33,275 nucleotides of DNA from Methanobacteriota archaeon (GTDB lineage Archaea > Thermoplasmatota > Poseidoniia > Poseidoniales > Poseidoniaceae). Where the stretch lies: NCBI GenBank assembly GCA_002722615.1, contig PBMQ01000029.1, positions 12,935 through 46,209 of the forward strand. Reading direction: 5' to 3'. The notes under the pieces were generated by a model. That model saw only the letters and a list, made by a program, of their open reading frames with translations. It did no database searches and was not told the origin of the DNA. Positions 935 through 10,662 of the stretch are shown piece by piece. Position 1 is the first letter of the stretch. Each line of letters begins with the position of its first letter. A program made the position numbers and the translations under genes.

Positions 935-2284
935 ATGGCCAAGGGTTGGGTCGACAAATGGGGTTCGCGTGGTAAGGGGCATCGCCCTAACCACATCCCT
1001 GCGATTGAAATCCAACCCACTTCCATGGAAGATAGACCTTGGAAATTACCACCCTCAAAAAGTCATATTATTCGAAAACTACTCCTCTGTGCACTAAGTA
1101 AAGGAAAACATACACTCATTGGCTTTGATGAATTGGGAGAAGATGCTGAGAGCATGCAACGATGCCTGACGCAACTTGGAGTGCAATTTCAAACCATCGA
1201 AAATGGCATTGAAATCACAGGAGTTGGAATTGAAGGATTTGAACGATCTCCTAGCGTTCTCCATGCTGGTAATTCTGGAACAGCATTGCGATTACTCATT
1301 GGCTTAACCTCAAGACTCGATTTCGTCAGTATGATAGATGGTGATGCAAGTTTACGAAACAGAAACCATTCCACTCTGTTGAATGCTTTGTCACCGTTGG
1401 GAGTAACATTCTCCTACTGCATCGAGCAAGAACGACTCCCTATCTCGGTTCATGGCCCCTGGATTGGTTCTGAACTGACCGTTGACGTTTCCCATTCGTC
1501 TCAGCCGTATTCCAGCATTCTTCTCTCAACGTGCGGAATTGAAACTCCATCGATTATCAAGACAGTTGGGGATGCAGTCAGCCGACGTCATTCTGCCCTC
1601 ACGATAGAACTCATGAAAGCGAGTGGTGCTTCGGTTAAGGTTGATCCAGAAGGAACAACTCTACAACCGTGGACATCCAATCCTCCGGAGGTATGGGACG
1701 TGCCTTCTGATGCTTCGATGATGGCCTTCCCTGTTCTGGCATGTTTGCTCAATAATCAAAGCATACAAATTGAGAATCCAGTTCAATCAAGGCATTCACT
1801 CGGACATGAGGTGTTACTCGATAACATCAATTCATTCGGAATCGAGGAACAAAATGGAACACTAACCCCAGTAGGAGAGGTGGCTGAAGTCGACATTGAC
1901 CTCCGCGATGCCAACGATCTCTTACCCCCACTTGCTGCAATTCTTGCACTTTCTGGTGGTGGACGACTTCGTGGAGCTACTCATGCTAAACACAAAGAGA
2001 GCAATCGAATCGATTGTACTGCACATCTCTTGAAATGTTTCGGACTAACATGCACAATCGAAGATGATGGACTCTCTATAGAAGGTGGCCAGCAGATGAC
2101 AAGACCGGAAAAATTTGTTGAGACATTTGGAGACCATCGCATACAAATGACGGCAGTTCTTCTTGCTGCTCAAACAGGAGGTACAATCGAAGGACCAAGG
2201 TTGCACAGAATTGCTGATCCTGCATTCCTAAGTCGTCTCTCAACCGTGCCGACCGAAGTGCTTGTCAAGGGAATCCAACGATAA
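935..2284 (+). CDS. aroA: 3-phosphoshikimate 1-carboxyvinyltransferase (EPSP synthase)
   Basis: ORF 893..2284; the likely start is the internal ATG at 935 (MAKGWVDKWGSRGK). Motifs: PPSKSHIIRKLLL, GNSGTALRLLIGL, LPPLAAILALSGGGRLRGATHAKHKESNRI, FGDHRIQMT. Confidence 0.93.
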   Translation: MAKGWVDKWGSRGKGHRPNHIPAIEIQPTSMEDRPWKLPPSKSHIIRKLLLCALSKGKHTLIGFDELGEDAESMQRCLTQLGVQFQTIENGIEITGVGIEGFERSPSVLHAGNSGTALRLLIGLTSRLDFVSMIDGDASLRNRNHSTLLNALSPLGVTFSYCIEQERLPISVHGPWIGSELTVDVSHSSQPYSSILLSTCGIETPSIIKTVGDAVSRRHSALTIELMKASGASVKVDPEGTTLQPWTSNPPEVWDVPSDASMMAFPVLACLLNNQSIQIENPVQSRHSLGHEVLLDNINSFGIEEQNGTLTPVGEVAEVDIDLRDANDLLPPLAAILALSGGGRLRGATHAKHKESNRIDCTAHLLKCFGLTCTIEDDGLSIEGGQQMTRPEKFVETFGDHRIQMTAVLLAAQTGGTIEGPRLHRIADPAFLSRLSTVPTEVLVKGIQR

Positions 2285-4210
2285 TCGTAATGCAGTTGGC
2301 CTTCCATGGACACAGGCCCATGGATTGGGAACGTTTCTCATGTCTTCGAGGAGTCGACGCATCTGAGCAATGGTGAGTGTATCGTTTGCTTTGACTGAAC
2401 CGCGACAAGCATTGAGGAATGCAAGATGATCTTTACGTCGCTCAATGGTCTCAAGTGGAGCGCCATCTTCTGATATGTCTTGAAGAAGATCGAGTAGGAA
2501 CGGTTCGACTTCATTGCCATCCAGTAAGCGTGGGGCTTGCATAACATCCCATTGGCCTTCATCTTGCTTTTCGAGATGAAATCCAAGTTCCTCAAATCGT
2601 TGCAAAAAAGATTCAAGACGAGCCTGTTGAGCAAGTGTTAATTCAATTCTCGACGGAACAAGGCGGGGTTGAGGTGTCCAAAGGCTCTCGTCGTTTCTCA
2701 ATCGCTCATAGCGGATTCTTTCGTGCAATGCGTGTTGATCGATCAACAACAATTCTTCCCCAGCTTGGGCCAGGATGTAGGAATCTGCAAATTGTGACAA
2801 CGGTTCCATGATGGGAAGATCGTTCAGAACGCCTTCAAGTGGAGATTCTTCAGTTGGAGAGATGCTACCGCCGCATCCTGCATGACGATGGAGTTCACGC
2901 TCTTGGTGAGAAAGAGCCGGCGCAATAGGATTAGTTGTTAGCCCCGGGAGTGATTTTTGTGCAGCAGCTGCAATCGATTGAGGTCGTGGCTTCTCAGGTT
3001 GTTTTGATGATTCTTCAGCAACATCTCCCACAAGATTCAGTTGTGTCCCAGCAGCAATCGCCCATGGAGGGGCGGCAGATGGTTCCGCAGATGTTTTTGG
3101 ATCTGCATCCTTGACCAACAACTCTTGAATGGGTTGATTTTGATTTGTTTGAGAGAGACCTTCCAATTCTTGCAATTCACCGCTCGAATCTGGTTGTGTT
3201 GGTGAAGTGGCAAGCGTATGTGCAATCGCCCGCTCAAGACGTTCAAGAACACGCCATGAATGACGCAGGCGCACTTCCCTCTTGGTTGGATGAACGTTGA
3301 CATCTACTTCATTAGCAGGAACGTGCAAGTGAAGCACTGCAACAGGATGTCGACCTTGCATCAAACGTGTTCGATAACCACGACGAATGGCTTGATGGAA
3401 CGGTGTTGAAGCGACCGGTCTATCGTTGACAAAAATGTGAATCTCATCGCCTTTGCCTCTGGAAATATCAGGAGCGCTGATGTAACCAGTCCATGATTCA
3501 TCCCCGGGGACATCTGCATCTTGCTTAGGTAAAACAAGCGGAAGAAGGTTGGAAGATTGCCCTCCCAACACATCATACAATCGGTTCTCAATCGATTCGC
3601 TTGATGGTAAATTCAGTGTAGAACGGCCATCGATTGTACACCGAAAGGCCACCGTTGGATGGGCAATAGCGTGTGCGACGACAACCTCAACAATTCGTGC
3701 ATGTTCAGTAGCAGGCCGGCGTTGAAATCCGAGACGAACAGGGGTATTTTGAAACAGATTCTCAACGGTGACAACAGTTCCATTCGCCATCCCAGTCGGT
3801 TGAATTTGTTCTTGAATACCATTCTCCATAATGATGCTTCGACCTTCATTACCTTCAGGTCTTGATGCGACCGTCAGTCGTGAGACGATACCAATACTCG
3901 CAAGTGCTTCTCCACGGAAACCTAGTGTGTGAATCTCATTGAGATCTTCGGGTTGACGGAGTTTTGATGTTGCGTGTCGAGATAATGCTAATTCGAGATC
4001 GTTTTCGTGAATTCCGCTCCCGTTATCTTCAATTCGAATAAGATCAAATCCACCACGTTCAATTTCTACATGTATGGAACTGCAGCCCGCATCAAGAGAA
4101 TTTTCAAGCAATTCTTTGACAACCTGTGCAGGACGCTCTACAACCTCACCGGCTGCAATATGGCCGATGGTTAAATCATCGAGTTGTTGAATTCGTTTAG
4201 GCTCAGTCAT
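2240..4210 (-). CDS. mutL: DNA mismatch repair protein MutL, with endonuclease motif
   Basis: GHKL ATPase N-terminus (IAAGEVVERPAQVVKELLENSLDAG, EDNGSGI, TLGFRGEALASI), C-terminal DQHALHERIRYE matching DQHA(X)2E(X)4E, and CVHGRPT. Confidence 0.96.
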   Translation of the reverse strand: MTEPKRIQQLDDLTIGHIAAGEVVERPAQVVKELLENSLDAGCSSIHVEIERGGFDLIRIEDNGSGIHENDLELALSRHATSKLRQPEDLNEIHTLGFRGEALASIGIVSRLTVASRPEGNEGRSIIMENGIQEQIQPTGMANGTVVTVENLFQNTPVRLGFQRRPATEHARIVEVVVAHAIAHPTVAFRCTIDGRSTLNLPSSESIENRLYDVLGGQSSNLLPLVLPKQDADVPGDESWTGYISAPDISRGKGDEIHIFVNDRPVASTPFHQAIRRGYRTRLMQGRHPVAVLHLHVPANEVDVNVHPTKREVRLRHSWRVLERLERAIAHTLATSPTQPDSSGELQELEGLSQTNQNQPIQELLVKDADPKTSAEPSAAPPWAIAAGTQLNLVGDVAEESSKQPEKPRPQSIAAAAQKSLPGLTTNPIAPALSHQERELHRHAGCGGSISPTEESPLEGVLNDLPIMEPLSQFADSYILAQAGEELLLIDQHALHERIRYERLRNDESLWTPQPRLVPSRIELTLAQQARLESFLQRFEELGFHLEKQDEGQWDVMQAPRLLDGNEVEPFLLDLLQDISEDGAPLETIERRKDHLAFLNACRGSVKANDTLTIAQMRRLLEDMRNVPNPWACVHGRPTALRLSLDSLDKHFGRHG

Positions 4211-4211
4211 G

Positions 4212-6848
4212 CTATTGATCTCCCAATTGATGTTGCATGCGTTCGATTAATGCAAAAGCATCTCTCGGCGAAAGGTCATCAAGATTTACCGAACTAAGCG
4301 TCGAAAGAACGTTCTCTTGAGCATCTGACATTGAGGGTCCATTCGATTCATTTGTTTGCATTGCAGCGGCTGCAAAATATCCCAAGAGAGAGGATTGTCC
4401 TTGTTCACGAGTACCAGGCGCTCCACTTCGCCCAGCTTTCGCACCTTGTGCCTGTTGCTCAAGGAAAGCGAGCAAATCAGTCGCACGTTCAACAACGCTT
4501 CGAGGAAGACCTGCAAGAGCCGCAACCTGGACACCATAGGATTCGTCGCATGGCCCATCTGCAACGGTGTGTAAGAAGCGCAACGTACCATCACTTTGAG
4601 CGACTTGAACGTGAACATTGGCTAATCCATTGACTTCTGATTCAAGTCCAACGAGTTGGTGATAATGTGTAGCAAACAAGCTTCGAGCACCAATTCGATT
4701 GCACACATCTTCCGTAACCGCCCAAGCGATTGAGAGACCATCAAATGTCGATGTCCCTCTACCAATTTCGTCCAACAGGAGGAGTGAATTTGGTGTTGCA
4801 CGGCGTAAGATATGTGCAACTTCGATCATTTCCATCATGAAAGTCGAACGACCTCTCCGAAGGTCATCACTTGCTCCTACTCGAGTGAAGATGCGATCAA
4901 TCAATCCAATACGTGCTTTCTCTGCAGGAACAAAACAACCCGATTGAGCAAGGATACTAACCAACGCTACTGTCCGCAAATACGTGGATTTACCACCCAT
5001 GTTCGGACCTGTGATGAGCAAAAAGTGTCGCTTGTCGTCCATAATAACGTCATTCGGAACAAAGCCTTGTTGAGCTTCTAGAACGGGATGTCGGGCTTGG
5101 CTGAGGACCATTTTTCGCCCTTCAGCAATGGTCGGTTTGACCCATGATCGTTGTCTGGCTGTTGAAGCAAAGCATTGCAAGACATCGATTGATGCAACCT
5201 TTGAAGCAATTTGTGCAAGTCGATTGGCATGCTTTCGAACACGGTCACGAAGAGAACAGAACAACCCATATTCGATGGCTTTGGATTTGCTTTCAGCTGT
5301 CAACAGGAGGTCATCCTGTTCACGAAGTTCATCCGTGACATATCGATTTCCATTTGTCATCTGCTGTTTACGTGTCCAATCATCAGGCACCTTGTCAGCA
5401 TGAGTTGAAGTAACCTCAATGAACCATCCAATCTGTCGATTCATACGAACTTTGAGACTTGGAATGTTCAATGCCTTTCGGAGTGATTGTTCAAGATCAG
5501 AAAACCAGGTGTGTCCCTGATTTGAAGCATTTCGATACCTGTCAAGTTCCTCATCAACACCTGCCCGGATCAATCCTCCATCTCGTAAGCCAAGTGGCAC
5601 TTCATCTGCGAGTGTGCGATGAATTTCCTCTGCGACATCAGAGAGTGAATCCAGATGTTCAACCAGGTGACAGAGCAATCCATCTTCGGTTTCAATGGAA
5701 AGGCGTTGAATCGCAGGCAAGCGTTCAATCGCATTTGCAGTTGCAAGCAAATCGCGTGCATTTGAACGATTGTACTTCAGTTGTGTCGAGAGGCGCTCAA
5801 GGTCCAACATTCCCTTGAGGCTATCACGAAGAAGATCGAGCCGTTTTGAAGATCGCATCAAAGCACCGACTGAAGCATGTCGAGCTTGTATCGCATCGGT
5901 GTTGGACAGTGGACGTAACAACCACGATTTCAAACACCTGCGTCCCATTGCAGTCCTGCATTTGTTCATTGCCCACAACAGTGAGCCTTCGTATTCACCC
6001 GCCAATGTTTGAGTAATTTCGAGATTTCGTAATGTGGTTTGGTCGAGAACCATTCCTTCCGATGTTTCTTGAATTTCAACATCACGTATCGCAATATCGT
6101 CATGACGATGTACAGAAGCAAGGTAATCGGCTGCAAGTGCAGTGGCTTGCAAGGCCTCAGGCGATTGCCCAAGGTCGAGATGTCCGAGATCATTCACTTC
6201 TAGCATTGCCTTCAGGCGTTGCGATGCTCTTTTCGGTTGCACAGAGTGTTGACTTACAATAACCGAATCAAGCATTCCCAGAAGGTGGAGAAGTTCACTT
6301 CGTTCGGCATCCTGCGGAGTAAGTACTAACTCACTAGGATTCCATCGCATGATTTCGTCATGGATTGAAGCCCACTTTCCATCACCCTCAAATGCTACAG
6401 CCCAAGCTTGACCGGTTGAAGCATCGATCATGGCCAATGCGGCAGTATCTTGATCGACAAGTAGACTACAGAGCAAGGCAGAGGAGTCACTTCCAATCAG
6501 GGATTCTTCGTACAACGAGCCTGGCGTGTAAATTCGTGTCACAACGCGTTCGAGGAGTTTAGCACCCTCTCGTAATTCTTCTTCTTGCTCTGCCACAGTT
6601 ACCTTGTGCCCAGAACGAAGCATAAGGCGGAGGTTTTCTTCGAGTTGATGCCATGGGAATCCTGCCATGGGAATTGGTTTCTCTGCGTTTTTATCACGAG
6701 ATGTCAACGCTAATCCAAGGACATTTGAACCAACTTCTGCATCTTCGTGAAAGAGTTCGTAAAAATCGCCCATCCGAAAGAAAAGAATCGTTCCAGGATT
6801 CGCATCCTTGAGCTCATGGAATTGGTCCATCATGCTCCGTTTTGCCAT
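4212..6848 (-). CDS. mutS: DNA mismatch repair protein MutS
   Basis: Mismatch-reading motif GDFYELFHEDA, Walker A TGPNMGGKSTYLRT, LLLDEIGRGTSTFDGLSIAWA, LFATHYHQL. Stop codon directly abuts the mutL start. Confidence 0.97.
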   Translation of the reverse strand: MAKRSMMDQFHELKDANPGTILFFRMGDFYELFHEDAEVGSNVLGLALTSRDKNAEKPIPMAGFPWHQLEENLRLMLRSGHKVTVAEQEEELREGAKLLERVVTRIYTPGSLYEESLIGSDSSALLCSLLVDQDTAALAMIDASTGQAWAVAFEGDGKWASIHDEIMRWNPSELVLTPQDAERSELLHLLGMLDSVIVSQHSVQPKRASQRLKAMLEVNDLGHLDLGQSPEALQATALAADYLASVHRHDDIAIRDVEIQETSEGMVLDQTTLRNLEITQTLAGEYEGSLLWAMNKCRTAMGRRCLKSWLLRPLSNTDAIQARHASVGALMRSSKRLDLLRDSLKGMLDLERLSTQLKYNRSNARDLLATANAIERLPAIQRLSIETEDGLLCHLVEHLDSLSDVAEEIHRTLADEVPLGLRDGGLIRAGVDEELDRYRNASNQGHTWFSDLEQSLRKALNIPSLKVRMNRQIGWFIEVTSTHADKVPDDWTRKQQMTNGNRYVTDELREQDDLLLTAESKSKAIEYGLFCSLRDRVRKHANRLAQIASKVASIDVLQCFASTARQRSWVKPTIAEGRKMVLSQARHPVLEAQQGFVPNDVIMDDKRHFLLITGPNMGGKSTYLRTVALVSILAQSGCFVPAEKARIGLIDRIFTRVGASDDLRRGRSTFMMEMIEVAHILRRATPNSLLLLDEIGRGTSTFDGLSIAWAVTEDVCNRIGARSLFATHYHQLVGLESEVNGLANVHVQVAQSDGTLRFLHTVADGPCDESYGVQVAALAGLPRSVVERATDLLAFLEQQAQGAKAGRSGAPGTREQGQSSLLGYFAAAAMQTNESNGPSMSDAQENVLSTLSSVNLDDLSPRDAFALIERMQHQLGDQ

Positions 6849-8213: not shown

Positions 8214-8297
8214 TCATTGCCAACATCTTCCCTGCCTTAGCGCATCGGAGGGATGATAAAGGGAGCATCAGTCGGAAGGATGCTTGGAGGACTGAAT

Positions 8298-8837
8298 ATG
8301 GCACGTAAGCCCGCATCCATGTATCGCCGTCTCAAGGGACCTGCCTATACCCGACGTAAGTATATCGGCGGTGTTCCCAACAATCGTATTCTTGCTTTCC
8401 ACTCCGGAAACCGCCGTGCTGCGGAGACTGGAGGGTTCCCTGTTGTCCTTGAACTTCTTGCCGACAACGATTGTCAGATTCGACACACAGCTCTCGAAGC
8501 TGCTCGTGTCATTTCCAACTCCACCATCCGTAATCAAGCAGGCGCTCAAGGATATGCGCTCCGTGTACACACATATCCTCACCACGTTCTCCGTGAAAAC
8601 AAGCAGGCAACTGGCGCAGGTGCTGACCGTGTTTCCCAAGGAATGCGCTGTGCATTTGGAAAGAATGTCGGAACCGCTGCTCGCGTCCGCCGTGGACAAC
8701 GAGTTATTTCGATTCACTGCAATGCAGCAGATTACCTCACTGCCAAGGATGCACTCCGCAAGGCAGGTATGAAATTCCCTACCCCCACAACAACTCGTGT
8801 TGTTCGTGGAGCAGAACACCTCAAGGGACTTGTATGA
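8298..8837 (+). CDS. rpl10e: 50S ribosomal protein L10e (uL16 family)
   Basis: MARKPASMYRRLKGPAYTRRKYIGGVPNNRI...; typical archaeal L10e/uL16 motifs; GGAGG upstream of ATG 8298 supports this start within ORF 8253..8837. Confidence 0.95.
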   Translation: MARKPASMYRRLKGPAYTRRKYIGGVPNNRILAFHSGNRRAAETGGFPVVLELLADNDCQIRHTALEAARVISNSTIRNQAGAQGYALRVHTYPHHVLRENKQATGAGADRVSQGMRCAFGKNVGTAARVRRGQRVISIHCNAADYLTAKDALRKAGMKFPTPTTTRVVRGAEHLKGLV

Positions 8838-8889
8838 ATTACAGCCGAGCTATATCTGCTCGGAACTTGTTTTACTGTGAGTGATAACC

Positions 8890-10662
8890 ATGCGTATCGT
8901 TGTTTTAGATGATGAACGATGCAAACCCAACATGCCTGCATTTGACTACTTGCAAAAATATGCAGGTTCATGTGGCGGCGAATGTATTCAGTTTACAGAT
9001 GAAAAATGGAAGATTCTAGAGACGGCTTGTCCTGTTTGTTTCACCAGAGCAAAATTATGCCCAGGAGATGCTGTTAAAGTCATTAATTTACCTTCAGAAC
9101 TGGACACAGACATGATTCATCGCTACAGTTTGAACGGATTCAGATTATTTCGCTTGCCAACGCCTACAAAAGAGTCTGTGGTAGGTGTGCTCGGTCCGAA
9201 CGGCATGGGTAAATCGACGGCATTCAATGCCCTTTCTGGACGAACAATCCCCAATCTGGGTGATTGGAGATCAACAGAAACAAACTGGGATGATGTAATC
9301 AGCACATTACCGCGTGGAGAATTACGTGACTTCTTCACATCTGTCAAAAATGGAGAAATCAAGGTCGCATTAAAGCCTCAAAATGTTGACAGGTTGCCGA
9401 AAAGAGTTCAAGGTACTGTAGAAAATCTGTTACGTAAGGTCGATGAAAGAAAAATGTTCGACGAATACGTGAAGGCAACAGGAATTGAAAAATTACTTTC
9501 CCGTACAGTTCAACAATTATCCGGTGGAGAACTTCAACGTATGGCGATATGTGCGACACTGCTTCGAGATGCTGATGTCTATTTCTTCGATGAACCCTCA
9601 TCATATCTCGATATTCATGAACGAATGCGTATCGTAAAAATCATCCAGGATCTTGCACAATCCAAGCGCGTAATCGTTATTGAGCACGATTTGGCAGTGC
9701 TCGATGTACTTGCCGACTTGGTCCATATCGTCTATGGAAACAAAGGAGCATTTGGTGTATTCACGCCAGCTCGATCTACTCGAACGGCCATCAACGCCTA
9801 TCTTGAAGGGTATCTGCCAGAGGAAAATGTTCGTATCCGTGAAAAGCCAATTAAGTTCCAAAAACACTACGACAGGCGAGGAGAAATTGGGAACCCAATA
9901 CTTCAATGGGGTGAAATTCGCAAGAATCTTGGAGAATTTGAACTTACAACAAACGAAGGTTCAGTTCACAGGTCTGAGGTCGTTGGCGTTGTGGGTGCAA
10001 ATGGTACGGGGAAATCAACTATGATCAAAATTCTAGCCGGTGAAATTGAGTATGACGAAGGCTGGGTAACCGATCAAACTACGATATCATACAAGCCTCA
10101 ACATATCGATGTCGACATGGATTGTACTGTCCAGATGTGGCTTGATAGTGAGTTGGGAATGCGTTGGCGGAGTGGTGAATTTAACGTCAACGTTATACGC
10201 GCTTTAGGCGTTGAGCCTCTACTTCAAAAGCGGGTCAAGAAATTATCAGGTGGGGAACGTCAAGCTGTTTCAATCGCCGTTTGTCTTGGCCGTGAAGCGG
10301 ACCTCTATTTATTGGATGAGCCTTCCGCTCACCTTGATGCAAATGCTCGTATGGAAGCTGCAAAAGCCATCCGTCGTACTATGGAAGCGAATGATAAATC
10401 TGCATTTGTTATTGATCATGACGTGTATTTTATTGACATTGTAAGCGACTCTTTACTTGTTTTTGAAGGACAGGGCGGAGTTCATGGCAAGGCTATGGGC
10501 CCCTATTCACTACGAGATGGAATGAATCGTTTCCTCGAAGATGTCAATGTGACCTTCCGCCGTGATCACGATTCAAAGCGCCCCCGCATCAACAAATCCA
10601 AGAGTCGAAAGGATCGAGAACAGCGTGAAAAGGGGGACTTTTACTCCTTTGAAAGCAAATAA
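8890..10662 (+). CDS. ABCE1/RLI-like ribosome-recycling twin ATPase with divergent N-terminal Cys domain
   Basis: Two ABC domains (GPNGMGKST ... LSGGELQRMAI ... FFDEPSSYLD; GANGTGKST ... LSGGERQAVSI ... LLDEPSAHLD) after an N-terminal RCKP...INLP region characteristic of ABCE1. ATG at 8890. Confidence 0.93.
   Translation: MRIVVLDDERCKPNMPAFDYLQKYAGSCGGECIQFTDEKWKILETACPVCFTRAKLCPGDAVKVINLPSELDTDMIHRYSLNGFRLFRLPTPTKESVVGVLGPNGMGKSTAFNALSGRTIPNLGDWRSTETNWDDVISTLPRGELRDFFTSVKNGEIKVALKPQNVDRLPKRVQGTVENLLRKVDERKMFDEYVKATGIEKLLSRTVQQLSGGELQRMAICATLLRDADVYFFDEPSSYLDIHERMRIVKIIQDLAQSKRVIVIEHDLAVLDVLADLVHIVYGNKGAFGVFTPARSTRTAINAYLEGYLPEENVRIREKPIKFQKHYDRRGEIGNPILQWGEIRKNLGEFELTTNEGSVHRSEVVGVVGANGTGKSTMIKILAGEIEYDEGWVTDQTTISYKPQHIDVDMDCTVQMWLDSELGMRWRSGEFNVNVIRALGVEPLLQKRVKKLSGGERQAVSIAVCLGREADLYLLDEPSAHLDANARMEAAKAIRRTMEANDKSAFVIDHDVYFIDIVSDSLLVFEGQGGVHGKAMGPYSLRDGMNRFLEDVNVTFRRDHDSKRPRINKSKSRKDREQREKGDFYSFESK

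Follow-up and report, generated by a model that had tools for sequence, protein, structure and literature searches.

An ABCE1 with a remodelled Fe-S domain is one of two alleles exchanged by recombination across the marine archaeal class Poseidoniia

The stretch of DNA analyzed here (the window; 33,275 nucleotides) lies on contig 29 of a draft genome (1.84 Mb, 82% complete) from the order Poseidoniales (Marine Group II), archaea that are common at the ocean surface. Among named records, those of Candidatus Poseidoniaceae are its closest relatives. It carries the gene for the ribosome-recycling ATPase ABCE1/RLI next to the gene for ribosomal protein L10e (Table 1). The N-terminal peptide encoded at 8890-9096 on the plus strand opens an unbroken frame that runs to 10662. 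The product scores 750.7 bits against the NCBIfam RLI equivalog NF009945 (cut-off 469), aligns end to end with P. abyssi ABCE1 (PDB 3j15/3bk7, E 1e-171), and matches PF00005 in two stretches. As read in the translation, both NBD1 and NBD2 retain Walker A, the LSGGE signature, Walker B (DEPS), and the H-loop. Thus, the identification of this gene as ABCE1/RLI with intact ABC cores, made in a first-pass annotation from the letters alone, was correct. The genome also contains aRF1, a Pelota-like gene, and uS12; ribosome splitting itself was not assayed. Elsewhere in the window, two tandem genes with PD-(D/E)XK nuclease domains (PF12705; 10698-12473 and 12498-14318), possibly duplicates, lie directly downstream of ABCE1, and adjacent MutL and MutS genes (PF08676/PF01119 and MutS domains) occupy 2240-6848 of the minus strand in this archaeon.

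Table 1. Positions in the window of the ABCE1 gene, its altered N-terminal domain, and the exchanged tract.
Feature	Position	Strand	Basis
Ribosomal protein L10e/uL16 gene, left flank of exchanged tract	8253..8837	+	PF00252, 91 bits
Tract differing from sister genome G013	~8838..10470	+	50-base identity profile, BLASTN; ends within ~50 bases
ABCE1/RLI ribosome-recycling ATPase	8890..10662	+	590 aa, single copy; NF009945 and PDB 3j15/3bk7 matches
Remodelled N-terminal (former Fe-S) domain, residues 1-68	8890..9093	+	Six invariant Cys, hhalign, no PF00037
Cys11, canonical ligand C1, retained	8920..8922	+	Translation, 42-sequence alignment, profile-profile alignment
Cys28, new position, invariant in remodelled form	8971..8973	+	Translation, 42-sequence alignment, profile-profile alignment
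Cys32, at the place of a non-ligand Cys (C33) in canonical relatives	8983..8985	+	Translation, alignments
Cys47, canonical ligand C5, retained	9028..9030	+	Translation, 42-sequence alignment, profile-profile alignment
Cys50, canonical ligand C6, retained	9037..9039	+	Translation, 42-sequence alignment, profile-profile alignment
Arg53, replacing canonical ligand C7; always Arg in the remodelled form	9046..9048	+	Translation, alignments
Cys57, canonical ligand C8, retained	9058..9060	+	Translation, 42-sequence alignment, profile-profile alignment
Walker A of NBD1, GPNGMGKS	9193..9216	+	Translation

The N-terminal domain had been described as having lost several canonical cluster cysteines, with Arg in place of the third Cys of CxxCxxCxxxCP. 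Profile-profile alignment with close canonical relatives confirmed both points: four of the eight [4Fe-4S] ligands are left (C1, C5, C6, and C8), there is no cysteine for C2, C3, or C4, and C7 is Arg53. The earlier count of six cysteines also held, but not the statement that one of them is at a new position; two are non-canonical (C28 and C32), and the remaining four occupy ligand positions. In ferredoxins, cluster I is ligated by C1, C2, C3, and C8, and cluster II by C4, C5, C6, and C7. Judged by this scheme and the profile-profile alignment, each canonical cluster is down to two ligands, and neither keeps four. PF00037 (Fer4) was matched by all 38 canonical relatives and by none of 42 remodelled sequences, while PF04068 was matched by all 38 canonical relatives and only weakly by the remodelled sequences (12 of 42, best E 0.003). 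In the window protein a Pfam search did not find the Fer4 family, leaving unmet the definition of the eight-Cys N-domain by PF04068 together with PF00037, and no convincing match to a zinc family was obtained for the remodelled domain. The remodelled and canonical N-domains are homologous (hhalign probability 99.6). All six cysteines (C11, C28, C32, C47, C50, and C57) are invariant across the 42 diverse remodelled sequences, and the median dN/dS of the remodelled N-domain is 0.017 (43 pairs), which argues that the domain is functional and constrained by strong purifying selection.

The predicted structure of the remodelled domain has a beta-alpha-beta-beta-alpha-beta order at a pLDDT of 80, and its closest match is to ABCE1 Fe-S domains (3BK7, TM 0.67 on the query, with weak E-values). 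Because the AlphaFold control on a canonical domain reached a pLDDT of only 40, this model lacks a usable baseline. In the post-splitting complex of S. solfataricus, the Fe-S domain swings into a pocket between h44, h5-h15, and uS12 (PMC7196836). Its contacts there are made by R2, by K15, N17, E19, and K59, which touch rRNA, and by P25, R28, and S29, which touch uS12 (PMC7196836). Canonical Poseidoniia retain nearly all of these residues; the remodelled form retains R2, and most of the others are gone. Since the published contact residues are mostly absent, docking of the remodelled domain on the ribosome may differ or be weaker. We looked for compensating changes in uS12, aRF1, and Pelota, and no column in these partners tracks the ABCE1 form; the aligned uS12 of a canonical genome (G031) and a remodelled one (G186) are identical.

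We ran a profile of the remodelled domain over 340 genomes of Poseidoniia (MGII/MGIII) and obtained 309 matches, which were counted by hand with totals re-checked. The six-Cys form was present in 150 of the 309 (two as partial matches) and the eight-Cys form in 159. Scores were sharply bimodal, with nearly all remodelled domains between 139 and 161 bits and canonical domains at E values of 1e-9 to 1e-16, and every one of the 166 full genes that were read was either remodelled or canonical. Remodelled and canonical forms numbered 49 and 104 in family f1, 94 and 44 in f2, and 7 and 11 in f3. Both occur within 12 of 25 genera, including that of the window (7 remodelled, 13 canonical). In an even sampling of 390 genomes across the phylum, no remodelled form was found beyond the class; the best-scoring outside candidate (G581, 64.5 bits) was rejected, as its sequence reads as canonical. 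ABCE1 is present in one copy in nearly every genome of the class, whichever the form. Two genomes (G140 and G320) gave two N-domain matches each; the two in G140 are canonical, and one of them, a frame of 115 residues, may be a duplicate at a contig edge.

This distribution bears on two other explanations. All of the genomes are draft or metagenome-derived, and the first-pass annotation had proposed that close relatives with all eight ligands would point to a sequencing or assembly error. Such relatives do exist, but they do not indicate error, since roughly half of the class has the remodelled form. The 150 carriers come from independent projects and include L065 and L069, which we presume from their record names (AG- and AH- series) to be single-cell genomes, and the N-domain lies in one unbroken frame with the ATPase domains under the low dN/dS given above. 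We therefore give practically no credence to an error of sequencing, assembly, or binning, a reading that we regard as refuted by recurrence, and chance is excluded because all 42 diverse sequences have the same six cysteines and the form is present in 150 genomes. If the gene were a side paralogue released from recycling, a canonical copy elsewhere could have escaped notice in a genome that is only 82% complete. However, the second canonical ABCE1 that the first-pass annotation wanted searched for was not found in this genome, which yielded one full-length ABCE1 match. Nearly all of 60 relatives checked likewise have one copy, as do nearly all relatives of either type in the class, several of them more than 90% complete, and in sister genomes the canonical allele is found at the very locus, next to L10e, where the remodelled gene lies. 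We consider a side paralogue very improbable.

In a tree of the N-domain, a branch with support of 100 separates all remodelled rows from the others, and the remodelled N-domain thus arose once. For the ATPase part, the tree largely agrees with taxonomy, and at least 14 switches of form are needed; an NBD tree with the remodelled rows as one clade was rejected (AU p=1e-7). In the tree of the neighboring L10e gene there are 12 changes of form among 60 loci, and one clade was again rejected (p 1e-36). The clearest example of exchange is the window itself, compared with sister genome G013, which has the canonical form. The flanks are 93–95% identical (93% up to 8837 and ~94% from ~10470), whereas inside the intervening tract DNA identity drops to ~43% in the N-domain and ~70% in the NBDs. 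The L10e DNA tree groups the window with the canonical locus of this same genome (L014) with support of 100. This tract is an allele replacement in one of the two genomes, although which of them was the recipient cannot be told. In other within-genus pairs, divergence is limited to the first ~200 bases of the ABCE1 gene. These data show that homologous recombination exchanges the two ABCE1 forms, as alternative alleles, throughout the class Poseidoniia. Among type-linked NBD columns the strongest lie in NBD1 (139-243), as linked tracts would lead one to expect, and none is decisive.

The source of the window's N-domain could not be assigned. Family f2 was considered as donor, and the tree leans toward it (support 81), but grouping with other f1 sequences was not rejected (p 0.23). 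In f2 loci (L148-L184) the 1.6 kb upstream of ABCE1 yielded no L10e gene, and the pairing of L10e with ABCE1 is therefore mainly a feature of family f1. In genus g23 of family f3 (L188-L194, MGIII-like), the remodelled ABCE1 is nearer to Poseidoniales genes over the ATPase part too; here a whole-gene transfer, and not a domain swap, is probable.

What keeps both forms in circulation is less clear. Within genera, remodelled ABCE1 was associated with possession of rhodopsin (CMH, z 2.7) and, among rhodopsin bearers, with the blue-tuned Gln105 class (within-genus CMH, z 4.1). At the tuning site, all ten members read of one rhodopsin class have Gln (blue) and all ten of the other have Met (green); the two are the known Clade-A and Clade-B (PMC6336850). 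The classes had been noticed before the association was tested. Rhodopsins of the PLQ (blue) and PLM (green) classes, which are found throughout the Poseidoniia (e.g. L313-L332), alternate within genera much as the ABCE1 forms do, which suggests an axis of niche shared by both. In phylogenetically independent pairs the direction of the rhodopsin link holds and is not significant (median p 0.375), and nickel superoxide dismutase showed no significant association with ABCE1 form (z -1.9). That enzyme was common in many genera and not found in g12, g14, g16, g18, or any f3 genus. Because independent pairs were not significant, the test was post hoc, and nickel superoxide dismutase was unlinked, a niche of light, iron, or oxidants that keeps both alleles circulating is a lead only and the least certain of our inferences.

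We think it fairly probable that the remodelled gene is a functional alternative allele, spread by recombination, in which the two clusters have given way to one six-Cys site that holds zinc or, at most, a single cluster; the metal itself is inferred. The first-pass suggestion of no more than one cluster, or a Zn site, is thus compatible with the sequence. According to this proposal, the remodelled domain belongs to an alternative and ancient ABCE1 allele and would still rotate against the small subunit, keeping the ribosome split, while a six-Cys metal site in place of two [4Fe-4S] clusters would hold it together. The most likely occupant would be a structural zinc on the Cx3C/Cx2C quartet of C28, C32, C47, and C50, with C11 and C57 close by. 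That lever and fold were kept while the clusters were replaced would be the simplest reading. Such a site would lessen the dependence of recycling on iron and cluster assembly and its sensitivity to reactive oxygen. The ABCE1 clusters are believed to have a structural and not a redox role, and those destined for Rli1 are an oxidant target before insertion (PMC8153317), which makes their replacement chemically plausible.

In the absence of metal measurements and atomic coordinates, the preference for zinc over a single remaining cluster is guesswork based on spacing. Four cysteines are enough for one cluster, and a [4Fe-4S] cluster could persist at the old cluster II place on C28, C32, C47, and C50, with only cluster I lost and C11 and C57 structural; the cluster II ligands C5 and C6 remain, the Cx3C pair enters the loop where C4 stood, and the CP motifs C47-P48 and C57-P58 are retained. 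This would leave the conservation of C11 and C57 without clear reason, and it has to contend with an invariant Arg at C7, a broken CxxCxxCxxxCP motif, and the lack of any PF00037 score. It is possible, though in our judgment rather unlikely. A different kind of alternative concerns not the metal but the selective agent. A virus, toxin, or inhibitor aimed at ABCE1, instead of iron, oxidants, or light, could maintain two alleles, with recombination spreading the form that escapes; a long-lived two-allele pattern with repeated exchange resembles balancing selection, and uS12, aRF1, and Pelota do not co-vary. No such antagonist is known or was found, however, and with the patterns searched no viral contig showed the remodelled domain. 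We regard an antagonist as unlikely. The farthest-reaching reading would be an iron-free form of an essential, supposedly universal Fe-S recycler whose two alleles, traded by recombination at one locus across the class, are balanced by iron, oxidants, or light; we judge this full reading somewhat less likely than not.

The two [4Fe-4S] clusters of ABCE1 are considered essential, and it is unsettled why splitting ribosomes should require them (PMC8153317). A natural version without the canonical clusters, beside canonical sister species with matching partners, means that domain swaps can test the need for clusters directly. A supposedly indispensable part seems to have a substitute. ABCE1 would exemplify an essential translation factor that recombination maintains in two diverged forms, and it may also illustrate how abundant marine archaea spare iron in their translation machinery. 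The ABCE1 family is known; as far as searchable literature shows, a form lacking its defining eight-Cys feature is new. We found no earlier report pairing ABCE1 with Poseidoniales or RNase L inhibitor with Marine Group II, and since the subscription literature was mostly not covered, priority is uncertain.

The window protein resembles the ABCE1/RLI of archaea (P. abyssi, 3BK7; S. solfataricus, 6TMF) and eukaryotes in domain order, its two ABC cassettes, RLI family score, end-to-end alignment, predicted N-domain fold, and the ends of the N-domain sequence (MRIAV..., INLPEELD...). It differs from them in lacking four of the eight cluster ligands, in its two new cysteines, and in the replacement of most published ribosome-contact residues of the N-domain. 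With the canonical Poseidoniia allele (e.g. L014, CM001443 MG-II) it shares the locus in close relatives, the partners, and ~60–80% protein identity; in contrast to the window form, that allele has eight invariant ligand cysteines and PF04068/PF00037 matches, and its N-domain is 3 residues longer. The remodelled domain belongs by predicted fold to the family of bacterial-type 2[4Fe-4S] ferredoxins, but has neither their CxxCxxCxxxCP motif nor the canonical four-ligand set. Superoxide dismutases of MGII undergo a cofactor swap between Fe/Mn and Ni (PMC10783094), and there too metal-related switching is repeated among close MGII relatives. Whereas in that swap unrelated enzymes replace each other, the ABCE1 forms are alleles of one essential factor.
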